IMG/VR virus record: IMGVR_UViG_3300018080_000517
Location: 1 to 26,905 of that record
Strand: one strand, 5' to 3'
Length of the DNA stretch: 26,905 nucleotides
From: a virus
Program-made: the position numbers and the translations under genes
The notes under the pieces: generated by a model
Database searches by the model: none
Seen by the model: the letters and a program-made list of their open reading frames with translations, nothing else
What the model was told of the DNA's origin: nothing
Part shown: positions 13-18,200 of the stretch, one piece after another
Numbering within the stretch: position 1 is the stretch's first letter
How the letters are laid out: each line of letters begins with the position of its first letter

Positions 13-435
13 CTAGAAGATCACTGGGTATCGATCTTCAACTATATCATCAACGAATCCGCCGACTTTAATCTCGCCTACTTGGATGGGGTTCGAAGCA
101 TCTGTGCCACCATCCTGAACTGAAGTGAAGAAATAAACTTCTTCATCTACAGTCTGCACTACTGTTGATGTGTCAAAACCTCCAACATGAGTTAGCGTAT
201 CCAAATGGTATTCTCCTGGACTATAAGTTGCGGAAATTTCTTCAAGCTGCTGGAGTAACTGCACCGGCGTAGCCTTGAATGTGTTGTCCGACCAGTCCAA
301 ATAGAATCCATCACTAGCGCGCCTAACCCTGATCTTGATGTCCGTCAGACCCGTTAACGGATCTCCGCTGGCATCTAAGATCAAGACAACAATGGGCTCT
401 GTTTCGCCCGTTTGTATTCTCGTGCAAGTTGCCAA
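13..435 (-). CDS. Beta-rich virion protein, BppU/baseplate-like N-terminal fold
   Basis: This 140-residue protein is not firmly recognised. Its N-terminal half has the pattern of phage upper-baseplate or fibre-attachment domains (BppU-like): a Gly-Glu-Thr near residue 10, then hydrophobic strands separated by D-x-x-G-x-P-L, a run of alternating charged and hydrophobic residues (IKIRVRR), and a P-G-E-Y turn near residue 75. It has no membrane segment or signal peptide. A TGA lies in frame just upstream of the TTG start, so TTG at 435 is the most upstream start possible; the ribosome site is weak. It ends in TAG at 13-15. It probably attaches to the virion, but its place in the particle cannot be told. 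Confidence 0.65.
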   Translation of the reverse strand: MATCTRIQTGETEPIVVLILDASGDPLTGLTDIKIRVRRASDGFYLDWSDNTFKATPVQLLQQLEEISATYSPGEYHLDTLTHVGGFDTSTVVQTVDEEVYFFTSVQDGGTDASNPIQVGEIKVGGFVDDIVEDRYPVIF

Positions 436-462: not shown

Positions 463-837
463 CTAATCACTATTGTCATCTGGTTTCACAATCGATAAAC
501 CAAGCTGACGGATTTCATTCGACGCAGTTAGACGCGTAAAATCATCAACGTCCATTTTTGCGTCTGATTTCGTATTTTTCCCCTCCTCTGGGGCTATGCA
601 CTTCAACTTAGACCACAGTCGGTGGATACCAGCTACCACCTGATTTTGTGTTTTCTGGTGCTCATTAATACTAGCAATGTCTGATTGGATCTTTTTTAAT
701 ACAGCTCCTATATCGCCGATCGAATCCGTGTGCTTCTCTAAAATTCTTCCGTGTGTGGCTAAAATCTCAATTATATCATCAAGTTGTTCTTTACATCGAA
801 TGTGCTCACTTTTAGAATCTGACTTCTTAGCACACAT
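463..837 (-). CDS. Coiled-coil protein of unknown function
   Basis: The product has 124 residues. Residues about 15-80 show heptad-like spacing of Ile, Leu and Val (DDIIEILATHGRILEKH, then IGAVLKKIQSDIASI), so a parallel coiled coil is likely. The C-terminal third is charged and low in structure. It has no membrane segment. Its ATG at 837 abuts the TGA stop of the upstream gene with no gap (TGAATG), with an AGAGAAGA ribosome site inside that gene, so the two are probably translationally coupled. It could be a partner of the membrane peptide or the MshEN-like protein just upstream, or a small virion protein. No function is claimed. Confidence 0.75.
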   Translation of the reverse strand: MCAKKSDSKSEHIRCKEQLDDIIEILATHGRILEKHTDSIGDIGAVLKKIQSDIASINEHQKTQNQVVAGIHRLWSKLKCIAPEEGKNTKSDAKMDVDDFTRLTASNEIRQLGLSIVKPDDNSD

Positions 838-1218
838 TCAATCTTCTCTTTCTGACACCGCTAATGAAGTAACAGCCGGAAAATCGGTCCCAGTTTTCCT
901 CCTCACCTCAGCGGCCCTACCACGCACACGATCTGCTAACTCCATCGTTGACGATCCACTTTGCTGTGCAATCGATGCTTGTGCCAATGCTCGTTTATGC
1001 TTTGCTTTGGATCTTAAGCCCTCTTGGGCACTTAGAGCAAGTTCCAGCTGCTCCATACTAATGAGCCCGTGAGCTACCAAAAAAATCCCTATTCTATCTT
1101 CGGAAGAAGAATTCTTCTGAAGTTCAACCACCCTTGCTACTTGTCCAGGAGTACAAAGTCCCATGGCAACTAAAATCCGTCCGACCGAGGTTGTATCGTC
1201 TTCTGGTCGGCCACTCAT
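838..1218 (-). CDS. Small MshEN-like protein (tandem c-di-GMP-binding motifs)
   Basis: This 126-residue protein carries two 24-residue motifs of the type found in the N-terminal MshEN domain of MshE/PilB/GspE secretion ATPases, which binds cyclic di-GMP. The known consensus is R-L-G-x2-L-V-x2-G-L-I-x4-L-x3-L-x2-Q. Motif II (residues 42-65) matches almost fully: RIG, LV, G-L-I, L, L and a final Gln. Motif I (11-34) keeps Gly13, Leu16-Val17, Gly20 and Gln34, but Ser replaces the leading Arg. The linker is 7 residues. No ATPase domain follows; the rest is a charged helix and a loose tail. The start overlaps the preceding short frame in ATGA. c-di-GMP binding is inferred; a purely structural reuse of the fold is possible. 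Confidence 0.75.
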   Translation of the reverse strand: MSGRPEDDTTSVGRILVAMGLCTPGQVARVVELQKNSSSEDRIGIFLVAHGLISMEQLELALSAQEGLRSKAKHKRALAQASIAQQSGSSTMELADRVRGRAAEVRRKTGTDFPAVTSLAVSERED

Positions 1219-1292
1219 AACTTAACTCTCCGACAAATGTCTTCAACGTCCTTTTCGACCGACTGAATAGCTTTCTGGGTTTCTGTGTTCAC
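1215..1292 (-). pseudogene. Coiled-coil continuation after in-frame TAA of the membrane peptide
   Basis: This 25-codon stretch continues the frame of the membrane peptide at 1299-1439 after a TAA, separated from it by two sense codons. It reads VNTETQKAIQSV followed by a charged amphipathic helix, and ends in a TGA that overlaps the ATG of the next gene (ATGA), the usual coupling in this operon. GTG at 1292 could start it alone, but no ribosome site stands in front. It looks like the rest of a longer holin- or XhlA-like protein cut by a CAA-to-TAA change. Readthrough, an independent micro-peptide or a sequencing error are alternatives. Confidence 0.4.
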
Positions 1293-1298
1293 TTTAAC

Positions 1299-1439
1299 TT
1301 AAGAAATAGCCAATTCGTAAAGACGATCGGAAAGAATATTACACCTCTTCCACAACACCCAAATTCCAAAAAGCAAAACAGCACATAGAATACCCCACGG
1401 TGCGCCAGTCTTTAGCAACCCCTGTAGCAACGCACTCAT
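1299..1439 (-). CDS. One-pass membrane peptide, holin-like
   Basis: A 46-residue peptide. Residues about 13-30 form one clear membrane segment (APWGILCAVLLFGIWVLW), followed by a positive WKRC stop-transfer edge and a short helical tail. The N-terminus is short with one Lys, so either topology is possible. A GGGAGAG ribosome site lies about 12 bases before the ATG, right after the patatin stop. Small one-pass proteins beside a lipase suggest a lysis role such as holin or spanin-like, but no family was recognised. The frame continues after TAA into a coiled-coil stretch, so the original protein may have been about 75 residues. Confidence 0.6.
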   Translation of the reverse strand: MSALLQGLLKTGAPWGILCAVLLFGIWVLWKRCNILSDRLYELAIS

Positions 1440-1458
1440 CGTCTATTGGTCTCTCCCG

Positions 1459-2295
1459 TTAACCAAGCATTTCTCGAGTTCGTGTGTAGCCCAAACTCTT
1501 CATCAAACGCATATGTTCCGGAACAAATTCAAGGCCATTCGAAGGCAAAGTTTTATGTGGGCGTATTATAATGAGATCTTCCTTATTTGGGACTACCGCA
1601 ACATCGTTTTTCTGGATCTCCGTTTGCATGGTATCAATTGACCAGATTCCAATTTCCGCAATATTCTCTGGAGTAGAAGAAGGTGTTGTTGAAGTTTTCG
1701 GTTTGTGAGAAACAGCAATGATTTTACTAGCACCTAACTGGTAAGCTAATGTAATCGGAATCACTTCACGAACACCACCGTCAAAACACAATTGCCCGTT
1801 TAATTTAACCGGCGGCATAATTACAGGTTGGTTAGTGCTCGCCAGAACAGCTCGAACGAACTCATCGAACGATTCCCATTTGTAAGTTTGAGGATGAGCT
1901 GTAGACGTCTGAGACCAATACCAAATCTCTTTAGTTTGACAAGCAACCGAACACAAAAAAACTGGAATCTCAGACTTCATCAATCGATCATAACGATTCC
2001 CAGCCATAGTTTTTCGGATCAGTCTCTCGAGGGGCTCGGTATGGTAGAGACTTTCTCTCCACAACTTCCAAGGTCTCCACCAATTCGACCGCATGATGTT
2101 GCGTTTAGTCACCGTCGTGTAAATACGGGAAAGTTCCTCGTGCTCCCCTATGGAGACCATCGGAGCAATTAAAGCTCCAGTAGAAGTTCCACAGATAAAA
2201 TCAGGGCGAATCTCTAACTCGTTAAGAGCCTCGGCGACCCCAACACTAAAGGCTCCTAAATCACCGCCCCCTGGGAAAACAAAAGCTGTCGTCAT
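1459..2295 (-). CDS. Patatin-like phospholipase
   Basis: The 278-residue product has the full patatin signature. There is a glycine-rich oxyanion loop PGGGDLG at residues 8-14, the nucleophile elbow G-T-S-T-G with Ser38, and the second member of the Ser-Asp dyad in the D-G-G motif (FDGGVREVIP, near residue 170). Patatins are lipid acyl hydrolases acting on membrane phospholipids. It has no signal peptide, so it would act from the cytoplasm. The ATG overlaps a short upstream reading frame with a strong ribosome site. It may damage the host membrane at lysis, remodel lipids, or be virion-linked. Both catalytic residues are present, so it is probably active. Confidence 0.9.
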   Translation of the reverse strand: MTTAFVFPGGGDLGAFSVGVAEALNELEIRPDFICGTSTGALIAPMVSIGEHEELSRIYTTVTKRNIMRSNWWRPWKLWRESLYHTEPLERLIRKTMAGNRYDRLMKSEIPVFLCSVACQTKEIWYWSQTSTAHPQTYKWESFDEFVRAVLASTNQPVIMPPVKLNGQLCFDGGVREVIPITLAYQLGASKIIAVSHKPKTSTTPSSTPENIAEIGIWSIDTMQTEIQKNDVAVVPNKEDLIIIRPHKTLPSNGLEFVPEHMRLMKSLGYTRTREMLG

Positions 2296-2421: not shown

Positions 2422-2571
2422 TCAACCTTGTTGTCCTTCAGGTAACGCGGCTTTCTTTATAGATTGCCACACTTCCTTAGGTAGAGCTTTATTAATCTTT
2501 ATATTCTCTAGTTCCTCTCGTATCTTTTTAGGAACATAGTCTCTTTTCTTCCAGTTCTTAGGTAATGGCAT
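2422..2571 (-). CDS. Small basic protein, unknown
   Basis: A 49-residue protein rich in Lys and Glu, helical, with no membrane segment. Its ATG shares one base with the TAA stop of the upstream receptor-binding-type gene (TAATG), and GAGAGGA lies just upstream as ribosome site, so it is translationally coupled. It shares the AGA/CTA/ATA-rich codon use of the cassette 2.4-6.4 kb and closes it. Function unknown; it could be a chaperone or cap for the preceding surface protein, but nothing in the sequence proves it. Confidence 0.65.
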   Translation of the reverse strand: MPLPKNWKKRDYVPKKIREELENIKINKALPKEVWQSIKKAALPEGQQG

Positions 2572-3695
2572 TAAGTAGTATCCTCTCTAAAACAAGTGAA
2601 CCTACCTGCTATAGACGCAGCACCTCTATCCTCAGCGTCAACTCTAGTAGATTGTAAAACAAACTTCCATCTTGCTAGGATAGGCTCAACCTTATACGCA
2701 TCCAGCTCCCATGACCCTGTATTGTCTATACACAACATGTTTTTGACTAAGTGTATATCGTCCATAGCAAAGTCAAATAGCATGTAGTCCGCAGAACCTG
2801 GAGACGATGATGGGGTTAGAGTGTCGCTCCATTGGTCGTAATCCCAGTACCCTGAACCTTCTAGAGGAACTGCTATAGCCTCGGACGTGTCAACATCATA
2901 AGCTCCGTCACCTGCTGCAGGCACTATCACGTTAACCATATTTATCCAGTACGCAGCGTTAGGAGGAGATTGATTAGTGTTAGTCGTATGGCAGTAGTAG
3001 TTAACACCGTTATGCGTTACCAAGTCTCCTGGATCGTACTCTGTACCGCTGTCCCAAGGCGTCAGTTGCTGAGCCGCAGCGAGATTACAGTTACCTTCAT
3101 TAGAACCGTTAGGTGTAACTGAAGTCGCAGGGACTCTAACTAAAACACTTTGTTTGTCATCTTCGTGTCCCCATTTAGTTGAACTGTCGTCAACTCCCCA
3201 CATAGCTGGAAACCAGCTAGAGTGACCATCGTGCATCTCGACAGTCTCATAGAAAGTTATAACAGCTTCCTTAGTGTCTGCTTCTCCTGGTGTTCCTGCG
3301 TATGTTATTCTTAGCAGAGCACCTTCGCCACGAGATATAACTGAACCGGTTAGGTCATCTCCCTGAGAAGAGATGAACATGTACAGACCGTCTGTAAACG
3401 GAGCAGGAACAAATACAGGCTTACCGTCTGGCTCTATAGGGCTATCGGGTACAAAACCTAACCCTAGGATCATTGCCTTAGCTTCGCTCTCCTCCGTGAT
3501 TTCTACTGAGCCAGAAAAGTTAGACTGCCAATCCGCGTAGTCATCAGGTGATACCTCTGTTTTATACAAATAATTCCTGTTGCCTGAGTACGCTATAACC
3601 GTGTCGCTACTAGTAACTTCGTGGTAAGCACTCCAAGTTGAGTTCGCTTGGAATACAGTTTTAAAGTTTGTATAACCTAGCTTAAAAACTTCCAT
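2571..3695 (-). CDS. Receptor-binding-type virion protein with CBM5/12-like motif
   Basis: The 374-residue protein is rich in Ser, Thr, Asp, Tyr and Trp and poor in Lys, as expected of a beta-rich virion surface protein. Residues about 208-252 carry a CBM5/12 (chitin-binding type 3)-like motif: W-D-S-G-T-E-Y, then P-G-D-L-V-T-H-N-G-V-N-Y-Y and a closing S-P-P-N-x3-W. In that family, aromatic residues stack on sugar rings, so glycan binding is inferred. No hydrolase motif was seen. Its start overlaps the upstream stop in TGATG, and it belongs to the codon-distinct cassette at 2.4-6.4 kb. It is likely an adhesin, receptor-binding protein or decorating fibre. Confidence 0.72.
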   Translation of the reverse strand: MEVFKLGYTNFKTVFQANSTWSAYHEVTSSDTVIAYSGNRNYLYKTEVSPDDYADWQSNFSGSVEITEESEAKAMILGLGFVPDSPIEPDGKPVFVPAPFTDGLYMFISSQGDDLTGSVISRGEGALLRITYAGTPGEADTKEAVITFYETVEMHDGHSSWFPAMWGVDDSSTKWGHEDDKQSVLVRVPATSVTPNGSNEGNCNLAAAQQLTPWDSGTEYDPGDLVTHNGVNYYCHTTNTNQSPPNAAYWINMVNVIVPAAGDGAYDVDTSEAIAVPLEGSGYWDYDQWSDTLTPSSSPGSADYMLFDFAMDDIHLVKNMLCIDNTGSWELDAYKVEPILARWKFVLQSTRVDAEDRGAASIAGRFTCFREDTT

Positions 3696-6911: not shown

Positions 6912-7522
6912 TACTTCTTCTTCCTAGTCGATTTTTTACCAGGTTTACGTGTTGATCTCTTTTTGGTAACCGGTTTTACCTCAGCTAATTTTCCATCTGT
7001 CTTCCCGGCCTCATCTTCAAGCCGGCGGGCAGGGCATGTGACGCAGTTAGGGTTATCGCAGTATCCACCTTGGTGGCATACACAATCACAATTGGCTTCA
7101 TCTTCAGCGTCTACACATCCGCAAGCGCAAATACGTTGAAGCATCTCTTTATCAGAGATCCTTTCCCCGTTCTTTATCGGTGCTACTTCAGTTTTTGGTA
7201 AGCGGGACTCCCTAGACTTGGTCATTAGTATTCCAACAATAAGGCTAGAATACTGACTGGCCGCTCTTTGAGTAGCGCGGCAAAATTCAATCTTTCTTTC
7301 GTAGTCTCTAATTTGTCTTTCTTGATCCACCCTCTCTACTTCGAAAGCTCTGAGAATTGTTGCTAGCGTATCTTCGAACAGTTCCGGAGTTGCCCCTCCT
7401 TGATCTATGAGCTGCTGCATCTCCTTACGGAGAGAAACAATATGTTGAACAGCTGTTCCCGTTCTCTTTTGGTCCGTCGACGTGCCACCTTTAACAACAC
7501 TATCAAGATCGTTTTCTGCCAC
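6911..7522 (-). CDS. Cys-rich, Lys-tailed protein (zinc-cluster-like)
   Basis: The 203-residue product has three parts. Residues about 20-90 are helical and charged, likely a coiled coil. Residues about 130-167 hold a dense Cys/His cluster (CACGC, then CDCVCHQGGYCDNPNCVTC) that could bind one or more zinc ions. The last 30 residues are a Lys/Arg/Thr-rich tail ending in KKSTRKKK, suited to nucleic acid contact. The start is GTG at 7522 with AGGATAG ahead, overlapping the upstream gene by 20 bases. The family was not recognised; a DNA-binding internal virion protein is one idea. Confidence 0.7.
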   Translation of the reverse strand: MAENDLDSVVKGGTSTDQKRTGTAVQHIVSLRKEMQQLIDQGGATPELFEDTLATILRAFEVERVDQERQIRDYERKIEFCRATQRAASQYSSLIVGILMTKSRESRLPKTEVAPIKNGERISDKEMLQRICACGCVDAEDEANCDCVCHQGGYCDNPNCVTCPARRLEDEAGKTDGKLAEVKPVTKKRSTRKPGKKSTRKKK

Positions 7523-7748
7523 TGGCTATCCTATTGGCTGTTGCTATGCAAGCATCACAATAAACTCCATGACGATCGGGCGGCAAAGTGCGACCAGAAA
7601 TAGCAAAAAACCGAGCACCTGGAATCAGATGTCCAGTTTTGCACTTCCCATCAGACGGATAATTTGGATTAGGGACCATTTTTCCATCCTCATTTTTAAT
7701 GAGTTTTGGAATCTCTCCCATCACCAAATCTACCTTGTTAGATCGCAT
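7503..7748 (-). CDS. Small zinc-finger-like protein
   Basis: An 81-residue protein with Cys-x-x-x-His (CKTGH, about residue 36) and Cys-x-x-Cys (YCDAC, near 64), a possible treble-clef or zinc-ribbon site, plus a basic C-terminus (SGRKRS). Ribosome site AAGGCGG stands before the ATG at 7748, 17 bases after the stop of the 656-residue gene. It overlaps the next gene, which is also Cys-rich, so the two may work together. No function is claimed. Confidence 0.65.
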   Translation of the reverse strand: MRSNKVDLVMGEIPKLIKNEDGKMVPNPNYPSDGKCKTGHLIPGARFFAISGRTLPPDRHGVYCDACIATANRIASGRKRS

Positions 7749-7764
7749 CTTTGCCGCCTTAAAG

Positions 7765-9735
7765 TTACTGCCTAATCATAAAGTTGATCGAGTCACCAGC
7801 TTTGATCGTCTCGTAAGGAGTGATCTGAGTAGTGCTAGTCTCCTCATAATCGTTACTTTGAACTGTGTTAGGCCCTGGATCGCGTAACTGCTTTCTCCAG
7901 AACACATCCATGTTGAGTCCATTGTCTGTGGCATCAACTGTGTAGGTATTGCTGCCAGGTAGGGTGTGCGCTGTGTTCTTAGGCACTGCCGAAGACAGCC
8001 GCTCAATAACTCTAGTGACACTAGATCCAGCTATAGCATTAGCTATAGCTTCGATGCTAGCTGTGATGGTCTGCCCATCGGCTAGCCCTGACACTGCAGC
8101 AAGAGCCCCAGCAGAATAATCTCGATTGCCAATTTCTTGGTTCAGAATATTAACAATCTCCTCCAGATCAGTATCTGAAGGATTCGACAAGTCACTAAAC
8201 GGGAAGTAATTTCCAGTGTTACTTAGATCAGGAGTAGTATCCCCATCTGCTGCTCCGATAAACTCACGAACCTGTGCAATATCAAGAGTAATTTCAGCAT
8301 CAGCTTGGATACCACCAATCAGAGTAGTACGATGAGCTGTCTCCGACAATTCATCGTTACGATACCGATCACCATTATAGAAATCCCAAGTATCTGGGTG
8401 TCGACTGACTTGCCAATTAATCGCACCAGAAGCATCAGCAGTAAAGTTACTACCAGCCAAATCAACGCTAGTGGCCGAATTGACCGCCGTGATCATACGA
8501 TGGTCGGCTTCGTCTGCAGCTAAGTTCCAGATGGTTAAGTACCGACCGATGTCTTGGTCGGTCATACCCGTCAACCCAGTCACAGTAGTGCTTGCACCAG
8601 TTAACGAAGCGGCAGATCCACTACGGCCTGAAATGGGCTCTAAGGAGCTATCGGTAGCCGAGCCATCATTGTCCCCTGTAATAAGCTGAACAAAGAATCT
8701 TGTTCCCTCATTCGTAGAACCGGCGTTTGGCTCTTTGTCATCACCGAAAGACCGAGCATAGATTTCGTCACCATCTTCTTCAGAGGGACGTCCGCCTGCT
8801 ACTGGATCAATGATATCAGTAAAGGTAGCATCGTAATTGGTTGCATCGTACTCACCACTATCAGCAATGGGTATACCCCGACGATCAACAGCATCAGCAT
8901 AGCTTCTGCTCGACAGAATACCCTTGAGGTCGCCCTCGAGTACCCACGTAATGCTTCCTTCAGCCGTGGCCGAGTTGAGACCCTCTAGCTCCAACGTGTT
9001 ACCGTCTGTAACCGCCTTGATACGATAAGTACCGTCCGCATCAGTCGATCCGGATATCGTAATAAAACTATCTAGGTCCCCAGCGATGAAGTGGTAGCCC
9101 GTAAATTCGGCTGTTTCGTCACCGATGGCTAACGTTAAATCACCATCCGTAATGCTTGGACGAAGAACAATCCCTGCCTGCTTAACGGTCCTGACCGTAG
9201 TCAGCGCTTTTGCTGTTTGACCTGCAAGATTGGTCAAATTATCGTCGACATCCGTACCGATGGCACTTGGACGCTGGTAAGTTGGTACGTCGGTGTAGTG
9301 CTGCGCCGTGCCCTTGATGTTCTTCCGGTCCGTCTGGGTGAAGCCGATGTCATCTTCAATCATGTACGGAGCGTACACATCGAAGGTTGCGGAAGTGCTA
9401 GCCTCTACTACTCCAGTAGCATTGACATAACTAATTGTCGTTCCGCCTTGAGCTGTGACGTAGAACGACCCATCGTTAGCACCATTGGTTGCCGAAGCAA
9501 CCGTAACGAATTTCCCAACCATACTGGCTGCGAAGCTTGCCCCTGCTACTGTGGCTGTCTGTACGCCATCGCCGTCTGGAGCGGTGATATTGTCAGTAGT
9601 GCCGTTACCCGTGGCCTGTGACCCGTCCTGAGCCCCTCTCTGATTCTGCTCATCGGCCAAGTCGCGAGCATTCGATGCCTCCACCGCACCCTGAATGTCA
9701 TAAGTTGGATCAATGAGACCATCTCTAACTGTCAT
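7765..9735 (-). CDS. Large modular beta-rich virion protein (fibre or collar-like)
   Basis: The 656-residue protein is acidic and rich in Gly, Ser, Thr and Asp. It contains three related beta modules at about residues 58-119, 197-263 and 378-440, each with a hydrophobic strand, a G-x-Y-x-I/V-T/K-A-V turn and a closing strand (W-V-L or W-Q-V). Between and after them are non-repeated parts, including a Y-N-G-D-R-Y segment near 449, and a C-terminal region with aromatic strands. No enzyme motif, signal peptide or membrane segment is seen. A very good ribosome site (AAAGGAG) precedes ATG 9735. It is probably a head fibre, collar or tail-attached structural protein. Confidence 0.78.
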   Translation of the reverse strand: MTVRDGLIDPTYDIQGAVEASNARDLADEQNQRGAQDGSQATGNGTTDNITAPDGDGVQTATVAGASFAASMVGKFVTVASATNGANDGSFYVTAQGGTTISYVNATGVVEASTSATFDVYAPYMIEDDIGFTQTDRKNIKGTAQHYTDVPTYQRPSAIGTDVDDNLTNLAGQTAKALTTVRTVKQAGIVLRPSITDGDLTLAIGDETAEFTGYHFIAGDLDSFITISGSTDADGTYRIKAVTDGNTLELEGLNSATAEGSITWVLEGDLKGILSSRSYADAVDRRGIPIADSGEYDATNYDATFTDIIDPVAGGRPSEEDGDEIYARSFGDDKEPNAGSTNEGTRFFVQLITGDNDGSATDSSLEPISGRSGSAASLTGASTTVTGLTGMTDQDIGRYLTIWNLAADEADHRMITAVNSATSVDLAGSNFTADASGAINWQVSRHPDTWDFYNGDRYRNDELSETAHRTTLIGGIQADAEITLDIAQVREFIGAADGDTTPDLSNTGNYFPFSDLSNPSDTDLEEIVNILNQEIGNRDYSAGALAAVSGLADGQTITASIEAIANAIAGSSVTRVIERLSSAVPKNTAHTLPGSNTYTVDATDNGLNMDVFWRKQLRDPGPNTVQSNDYEETSTTQITPYETIKAGDSINFMIRQ

Positions 9736-15239: not shown

Positions 15240-18200
15240 TCAACTCGCTACTCGAAGCATAGAATCAAGTATGGATTTGACAGTTTCGGGTTCCTGCTCC
15301 TCTCCTTGAGGCTGCTGTTCCACTTCTTCTTCATCTGAACCGTGATGATACGACTCCTCTTGATCGAACACTGGGTGGTGTCGATCAGGTTGATCCCCAC
15401 CGTGAGCATACTCTCTGCCGTGATCCGGTTCAGGAAGATCTTCTACTTTAGTAGCATGTTTAAATGCTGACCAATGTTGGTCATGCTCATGCTGCGGGTG
15501 GTTATGGATCCATGCACCAAACGCTTCCTCGTCCGGAGTCCGCTCCGGGTGAGACACTGAAACCGTCCACGTAACCGGACCAGTGTCTGCGCTGCCTCGG
15601 AACGCCTTCTCGATCAGCTCCGAGTGTTCGCACGTGCCCCAAGACTTAGAGCACAGCGAACACAAAGACTTAGCAACTCCGTAAGCATGTTTTATCGGGT
15701 GCCAGGATCCATTCTCGTGTCGTATTTCTATATGATCCGCATGCACAGGTTTAGTGGTTACAATATCTCCTGTGCCTCGTTCAGTTTTAAAATGGTCTCT
15801 GTGAGGGGTCCTTAATATCACAGGACCCCCGCCCCCCTCTGGGGCAAACGAATGAACCAACCCCGCCTGCTTGGACCAATAAGATCTTTTCTCAGTGCTT
15901 CCGTCAGGCCAAGTAGACTGGTTTGTCCCATGAGACGGACTGTGAGTTTCCAAATGCCCCGCATGAGCTATGTCGTGAGCACTCCAGTCGTTAGTGGCAT
16001 GGTAGACATACCCAGGTTCGCTTGGGGTTTTTGAAGTAGGTTCGTGCGGACGAAACTCTTTCTGACCCTTGATTATCTGAGGACGCTTCTTCGTCGCCTG
16101 AAGCTTGTCCTTGAACTCGTCCAAGGTCAGCACTGACATGCTACCGAAGAAACGAGGATCATCGTATTGCTTCAAGAAGGCTCGTTTGGCTTCTTCCCCC
16201 GTGTCGAATCCCAGCATACACTTGTCTTCGTCGTACTCCTTAAAATCGGGAAGCTTCTTTTGGTGGATGACGAAAACCTTATCTGATTCCTTATTGGGAC
16301 CGATATACACATCAACCTCGTCGCCATCCATACCCTCCGTCCCACGGATGTATCCGTAAGCGTAATGCATCTTGGTTTTACCTTCAGTGCCGCTTTCTTT
16401 GTCTTTCCATTTCCTAACAGACCCCTTCCTATTCTCGATAGAAACCGGCATGCCTTGGAAAATCATTCTTCCATGGAGCTTATATGCCTTCTCTACTTCC
16501 TCTCCAGTTTTGGGGTCGTGGTGGTGGATAGCGGACATGAACAACGCTTCAACCGTGACCGGGTCAACAATTGTCTTTTGAGCCATATTAGGATCGACCT
16601 TTTGGTGACCCATCATTCGCATAACCCTGGCATAAGCTTTGTCAGCAAGTCGTGGAAGGTCTTTGGTTTCTAAAGAAGCCTGCTCTCCAACGATACGTTG
16701 AAACTCTTTCGAGAACAATTCCGTACCGTGGTAAGTACGGAACTGTTTCAGTTGCAAACCAAACTGCTCATCCAGTGCAGCCGCTACTTCACGTTGCTGA
16801 ATTGGCTGACCGTCTACTTCAAACACCTTGTCGCCTGGCTTTTTGCCTTGGGCCAACTCATGCAGAGCACTAGCAGCTGCAGAATCTAACACAGCAGTCA
16901 CTATGTGTGGGGACCCGCTCGCGTCCTTGTACTTCATCTTGAACGCGTTACCAGTGATCGACACGTCTTTGATCTTCATCGACAGAAGACCACTATCATC
17001 ACCGTCTGACAACGCTCTCGCCTGATCAACAAGAGCCAGCACCAAACCTACTGCTTTCTGACGCTGGTCTTCCCCCTGGATCAGCCGCAAGTAAAACTGC
17101 CTCACCTTCTCAAGCTGCGAATCCACCTGCCGGATATCCTCATTCAACGCCAAGCGGTGGTTGCCGACACGGTCACGATGCAGCGAAATGAATTCCTCGT
17201 TACCAGTCTCTGGGTCCTCGTATTTATGCGCCCAATGATTTACTTCAGGATCATATGCCGTGTTGGGTTCAGTCTCAACACCTTCCGGCGCTGGTCTGTG
17301 GAGCTTTCTACCGAACTCATCGAATATATGAGGTGCGGTCTCCCGAGTCGGCTCATGTGGATGAATCTCCGGTGGCCCAGCTTCTGGATCATGGTGGGGA
17401 TGACCCTCAGGAGCATTAGTGCCTCTGACGTGCTCGCCGAAGTTATCCTGATACATGTATTTATACGCACCTGGTTCGCCTTCGCGCCAAACGTAGTGCA
17501 TTTGATCTTGATCGTCTTCGGTTTCTTCTTCAGCTTTCGCTAACACATCAGCAGCCATCAACAGAGAATGATAATTAATCGATCTCTCAAATTCTTTGGG
17601 GTCAGCCACATGCTCCCCAGTAGATTCCCCAGTGTGGTGCTCGTAGGCAGTTCTAGTCCATGCTGGTGTGCTCGGAGCACTAAGATACTTGTCAAACCCA
17701 CGAGGATCTTCCCTGTGCCAATCCTTCATCATCCCGAGAATCTCGTGATGACCTTTTCCTTCTTTTTTCAACCACTGATCAAACTGGTTTAAATGGAGCT
17801 TTCTCTCCTCAGAAGAAAGTTCGCCCCTACCAACAGCCTCACCAGTTTCTACCATTCTTTGACGGCGCTTCTCTTCGCTTTCTCGTCGCAGAGCCGCCTG
17901 TTCGGGAGTTGGGAGGTGTTGAGTCCCCATATCGTGGCCGACACCGCCCTCTTGCCTTCCCTGACGAGCTTGGCCACCAGCAGGTCGTCGAGCTGTCCAC
18001 TCCCCACCCTCAGAACTAGTTCTTCTCGATGCTCCCGAACCAACCGTACTTCCTGTAGAACGGACATCACCACCTTCCATACCGGCGGCTGCTTGTTGGC
18101 GCGCAAGCTCCTCCTCAAGTTGCGGTAGAGTTTCTTTCCTCCGTTGGGCAAAACCACTTTCTTCACCAGTGGCAACATCCTGCTCGATCAGTTTTTTCTT

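Follow-up and report, generated by a model that had tools for sequence, protein, structure and literature searches.

Does a tailed phage encode its own receptor for host cyclic di-GMP (c-di-GMP), and what could such a protein do during infection? The question is raised by a gene at positions 838–1218 (minus strand) of IMG/VR record IMGVR_UViG_3300018080_000517. The whole 26.9-kb record (26,905 nucleotides) was analyzed and is called the window below. In many bacteria, c-di-GMP sets the decision between swimming and biofilm, and phages depend on host receptors that are under c-di-GMP control. MshEN domains, which normally sense c-di-GMP, are well known from pilus and secretion ATPases and from some other bacterial proteins. 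New here is a stand-alone, phage-borne, membrane-coupled MshEN_N protein in which the Arg of the textbook motif is partly missing. Judged from their sequences, the uncultured phages with a free-standing MshEN may read or block the c-di-GMP signal of the host. A stand-alone protein of 126 amino acids is easy to purify, so phage reading of c-di-GMP is directly testable, and natural Arg-less variants can probe which parts of the published motif are needed for binding.

The window belongs to a tailed phage. It encodes a portal protein and an SPO1-type major capsid protein, and a tail sheath was seen in relatives, in agreement with the phage origin given in a preliminary description of this DNA. 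The gene product, P0001, was scored against the consensus RLGxx[LVI][LVI]xxG[LVI][LVI]xxxxLxxxLxxQ, which has 11 key positions (PMC5013675). P0001 contains two tandem 24-residue motifs of this consensus, and the translated ORF confirmed the places assigned to them before. Motif I (SVGRILVAMGLCTPGQVARVVELQ) spans residues 11–34 (S11–Q34; positions 1117–1188, minus strand), and motif II (RIGIFLVAHGLISMEQLELALSAQ) spans residues 42–65 (R42–Q65; positions 1024–1095, minus strand). Motif II matched 10 of the 11 key positions, the exception being Ile for Leu at position 2; the single mismatch reported for it earlier is thus correct. Motif I matched six of the 11 strictly and nine when conservative changes were allowed, and it is the most degenerate motif I among the family members. 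Besides the ortholog alignment, composition-preserving shuffles of P0001 support both motifs: in 5,000 of them, neither the score of a single motif nor that of the pair was ever as high as in P0001, the best shuffled pair scoring 12 and the real one 16. The preliminary description of a protein made of two motifs was right about their presence but omitted residues ~66–126, an additional part that is partly conserved and mostly helical. It contains a conserved stretch with GLRS and a predicted long helix (residues 73–109; positions 892–1002, minus strand; AlphaFold2 model).

Family membership was examined with several searches. With NCBIfam NF053729, a model of the MshE-related cyclic di-GMP-binding domain whose curated threshold is 38 bits, P0001 scored 39.5 bits. 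Five close orthologs also passed, with 51.6, 46.7, 53.6, 41.1, and 44.3 bits, and a divergent member stayed under the cut-off with 32.5 bits. With P0001 alone, phmmer found PilB N-domains of Geobacter (E = 2.7e-4), ungapped across residues 10–70. A domain profile of seven phage proteins searched against the PDB matched PilF (3.8e-19), PilB (9e-10), the c-di-GMP-bound PilF GSPII-B domain (7e-9), and MshE (1e-7); at E < 0.01, this profile matched only GSPII/MshEN chains. The reversed profile, used as a control, gave one unrelated helical match (E = 0.0025). Six members, namely the window protein and the five orthologs, locally matched the MshEN segment of NfrB/NF008411. NfrB is a c-di-GMP-activated glycosyltransferase; the match covers one segment of this large enzyme. 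The Pfam MshEN model PF05157 (90 positions, gathering cut-off 23.1 bits) matched neither P0001 nor anything else in the window, and P0001 was therefore filed as a member of the two-motif MshEN_N group and not as a full Pfam MshEN. Pfam, PHROGs, and PADLOC gave P0001 no significant assignment. DUF4388 and Phage_holin_10 matched the motif segment weakly, below cut-off, and were rejected. On these sequence comparisons, P0001 is a phage MshEN_N protein, as had been proposed.

AlphaFold2 models were made of the domain alone and of the full protein. The domain model had four helices at the expected places, two per motif, with a pLDDT of 87 and a pTM of only 0.57; the pTM of the full model was 0.49. 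The predicted C-terminal helix had a block mean pLDDT of 90, falling to 73 over residues 71–110. It is not part of MshEN_N and occupies the place of the alpha/beta MshEN_C subdomain of MshE. Foldseek/VIA searches with the full-length and domain models returned no MshEN match. Since the packing of the models, built from 6–7 sequences, was too uncertain for a judgement of the fold, this result was not counted against it.

Orthologs were found in six of 50 related IMG/VR records, so that the gene does recur in related phages, a point on which the preliminary description had asked for a check. Near-identical copies turned up in later scans, as did a single divergent member, on a 166-kb phage contig. 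The five distinct close orthologs are 41–46% identical to P0001. Their divergence was highest at third codon positions, lower at first, and lowest at second, which shows that the gene is truly coding and that its protein sequence is constrained; near-identical pairs had zero nucleotide differences. Further relatives sharing the capsid type lacked the gene, but many of their records are fragments that possibly stop short of the site. In INPHARED, tblastn with P0001 found no match, and tblastn with the orthologs found two weak matches, both on faecal scaffolds that are labelled "Bacteriophage sp." and carry no annotation. One of them was inspected: MT835655.1 encodes a PilB-type ATPase beside a prepilin-peptidase-like gene and is therefore probably bacterial DNA; it was rejected. 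The searches made found no orthologs in genomes of bacterial species. The earlier remark that no described phage system of this kind was known also agrees with the titles and abstracts of the literature on MshEN and phages, which mention no phage-encoded MshEN. Their subject is MshEN proteins of the host, for example one that phage N4, whose receptor depends on c-di-GMP, needs for infection.

We then considered the positions that contact the ligand. In MshE, c-di-GMP makes direct polar contacts with the backbone of Gly-3 and of the residue after it and with the Gln-24 side chain; its guanine bases lie on hydrophobic positions 2, 17, and 21, and Arg-1 stacks outside (PMC5013675). In the phage family, the six close members (window included) all keep Gly-3 and Gln-24 in both motifs, and their positions 2, 17, and 21 remain hydrophobic, with Val, Met, or Ile instead of Leu at position 21 of motif I. 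In motif I of the divergent member, Gln-24 is missing. Mean identity was 0.81 for the 12 contact columns and 0.58 for the other domain columns, and 2% of random column sets scored at least as high as the contact columns. Arg (or Lys or Leu) at position 1 of each motif was not found: position 1 of motif I is Ser in all seven members, and position 1 of motif II is Arg in the window only and Leu or Met in the others. Of the residues named earlier, Arg42 is unique to the window, and Gly-3 and Gln-24 are constant in the close members. The invariance of this Gly and Gln, rather than Arg, is the better evidence for a putative ligand pocket in the family.

Published affinities suggest that Arg is not essential. 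Isolated MshEN_N (residues 1–62) binds c-di-GMP with a KD of 0.35 µM, and changes of Arg9 or Gln32 cost less than fivefold in affinity, with Gly11 being essential (PMC5013675). The PilF GSPII-B domain, where Lys and Leu replace the two Arg, has an affinity of 6 nM (PMC11731258). The absence of Arg therefore lowers the binding claim but does not end it. In XpsE, whose domain does not bind, Gly-3, Leu-17/21, and Gln-24 have been lost (PMC5013675), and the six close phage members keep the same or a similar residue at these positions. Binding of c-di-GMP by the phage family is, as a rough estimate, probable. We rated the window's own protein somewhat lower because its motif I is the most degenerate.

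The phage protein was compared with solved relatives. With MshEN_N of Vibrio cholerae MshE (PDB 5htl; PMC5013675), it shares two tandem 24-residue motifs in the same order with a similar spacer, Gly-3, Gly-10, Gln-24, the hydrophobic positions, and two predicted helices per motif. Unlike MshE, it is phage-borne, has neither the ATPase nor the alpha/beta MshEN_C, starts motif I with Ser instead of Arg, has a spacer of seven residues instead of five, and carries its own C-terminal part with the long predicted helix. GSPII-B of Thermus thermophilus PilF (PDB 8pe0; PMC11731258), among the best PDB matches of the family profile, binds c-di-GMP without any Arg and starts motif II with Leu, as do three phage orthologs. 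It differs in belonging to a three-domain traffic ATPase and in starting motif I with Lys, not Ser. The PilB N-domain (PDB 5tsg/5zfr) was the best single-sequence match, ungapped across both motifs; it has the seven-residue spacer of the phage protein but is part of a hexameric ATPase.

The strongest clue to function, missed in the preliminary description, is a coupled membrane-protein gene. In the window it lies at positions 1215–1442 (minus strand), where the frame matched with E = 6.7e-17 and contains one TAA. In six of six close phage lineages (window included), this gene is directly upstream of the MshEN gene, and its stop overlaps the MshEN start, as ATGA or, in one lineage, as TTGA/TGATG. 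The overlap implies coupled translation of the two proteins. The membrane partner is small, with a single transmembrane segment near the N-terminus, followed by positive residues and a coiled-coil tail. Given the positive residues after the segment, the tail is predicted to be cytoplasmic. The gene is intact in the five related lineages. In the window, the in-frame TAA at 1299–1301 shortens the product to 46 amino acids; the frame past it is still recognizable and conserved, and its terminal TGA forms the ATGA overlap with the start codon of the MshEN gene. The TAA may reflect either genuine loss or an error in sequencing. The BhlA holin family PF10960 was rejected as an assignment for the partner, as it matched a single ortholog, with 15.6–16.8 bits against a cut-off of 22.6; a holin identity is only hinted at by the sequences.

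The surroundings of the pair vary. Tail-fibre genes lie on one side of the pair and, on the other, the gene block that leads to the tail sheath; by this position the pair was counted among the late genes. Downstream, a conserved gene for a 140-residue, possibly virion protein (positions 13–435, minus strand; no Pfam or PHROG match) adjoins the MshEN gene in related phages. In the window only, a gene at 463–837 (minus strand) lies between them; it encodes a coiled-coil protein with a weak match to phrog_937 "hemolysin" (XhlA-like; E = 0.0034). The slot directly upstream of the pair holds a patatin-like phospholipase gene in the window (1459–2295, minus strand; PF01734, E = 6.8e-27) and other genes in relatives. 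In relatives such as L104 (positions 6982–7530), it is occupied by a C92 papain-like amidase gene, with a sub-threshold Pfam match. The divergent member on the 166-kb phage (G051) is flanked by other membrane-protein genes, DUF1003 upstream and a transmembrane coiled coil downstream. At positions 7496–8435 of that contig (IMGVR_UViG_3300009506_000019, L106), the DUF1003 gene overlaps a gene that encodes a predicted coiled-coil segment and then the divergent MshEN domain; the transmembrane coiled-coil gene comes next. These phage records contain no GGDEF genes and no PilZ genes above cut-off. A PADLOC scan showed no relation to defence, with a single chance Cas11e match.

Our leading explanation, to which we give a probability of about 0.45, is that the MshEN_N protein binds host c-di-GMP, works with the membrane protein, and modulates a late membrane function of the phage. 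A lineage of large tailed phages would have captured a free-standing MshEN N-terminal domain of four helices and two motifs. In the cytoplasm of a host assumed to use c-di-GMP, the domain would bind the ligand in a two-fold pocket built from both motifs, with the Gly-3 backbone amides, the Gln-24 side chains, and the hydrophobic residues at positions 2, 17, and 21. It would then act, presumably by physical contact, with the membrane protein encoded upstream, the coiled-coil tail of which has a predicted cytoplasmic location. The host c-di-GMP level would in this way modulate lysis timing or the exclusion of other phages. Several results speak against this explanation: Ser at the start of motif I in every member, the degenerate motif I of the window, the divergent member's loss of Gln-24, the negative Pfam MshEN and Foldseek searches, the stop codon in the window's membrane partner, and the absence from these phage records of GGDEF genes and of PilZ genes above cut-off. 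That a phage c-di-GMP receptor and its own membrane protein let the biofilm or motility state of the host gate lysis or exclusion directly is a doubtful extension. Sensing, sequestering, and links to pili or biofilm, which were suggested from the start, might all apply to a phage MshEN.

The MshEN-derived fold might not bind a ligand at all and might serve as an adaptor or a part of the virion or of tail assembly, comparable to the N-domain of XpsE/GspE, which lost c-di-GMP binding. The missing Arg, a motif I that is weak and weakest in the window, the place among structural genes, and the extra conserved region with GLRS and the long helix after the domain are consistent with this. However, the six close members show none of the XpsE-type losses (PMC5013675), and the hydrophobic contact positions remain hydrophobic, which makes a non-binding role unlikely. 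The protein might instead be a sponge that sequesters c-di-GMP or another cyclic dinucleotide and thereby defeats STING-type CBASS or shifts the host from the biofilm state. A small cytosolic domain without an output domain would suit this role, MshEN affinities range from nM to sub-µM (PMC5013675, PMC11731258), and bacterial STING is reported to use c-di-GMP (PMC8748872). Phage sponges are a known class, and common host domains can give rise to them (PMC11722364). The phage cyclic-nucleotide sponges Acb2 and Acb4 (PMC11722364) would be analogous only if the phage MshEN sequesters c-di-GMP; no relation between them and the phage protein was found. We consider a sponge improbable, since the block holds virion and late genes (capsid and fibres, then tail sheath) and not early counter-defence genes, PADLOC showed no defence context, and sequestration would not require a coupled membrane protein.

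Phage proteins Tip and Aqs1 inhibit PilB, and pilus control through PilB inhibitors is a known phage strategy. In type II secretion, the N-domain of the ATPase docks on GspL. A free phage domain could accordingly mimic the N-domain of PilB or MshE, block docking of the motor, and stop type IV pili, and the pilus shutdown would exclude other pilus-dependent phages. The closest solved relatives, the PilB/PilF N-domains, and the known strategy argue for such a competitor. But the conserved parts are ligand-contact residues and not an identified docking surface, and the sole link to piliated hosts is a distant capsid match, 47% identical, in a Myxococcales MAG. We regard this mechanism as quite improbable. 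Unrelated helical repeats with a chance resemblance to the motifs would agree with the Foldseek result and with a short, helical domain. This explanation is close to refuted by the six proteins passing NF053729, the PDB profile match (E = 4e-19), and the failure of all shuffles. The reading in which the protein binds c-di-GMP and works with its membrane partner remains the one we prefer.

Some further features of the source phage were observed. Capsid proteins 44–55% identical to that of the window occur on low-coverage contigs (L121, L122, L124, and L125) of one Myxococcales MAG. These capsid matches are a weak hint of the host. Up to 22 MshEN genes occur in Myxococcus xanthus (PMC5013675). 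In the window, a 1,723-aa ORF at 15240–20411 matches an inorganic-pyrophosphatase-like domain (PF18823, E = 1.3e-37) and the catalytic core of eukaryotic-type topoisomerase I (PF01028, E = 6.5e-12), a polyvalent-protein architecture. The product of the gene at 2571–3695 is probably a tail fibre; it carries a CBM_5_12 carbohydrate-binding module (E = 4.4e-7).
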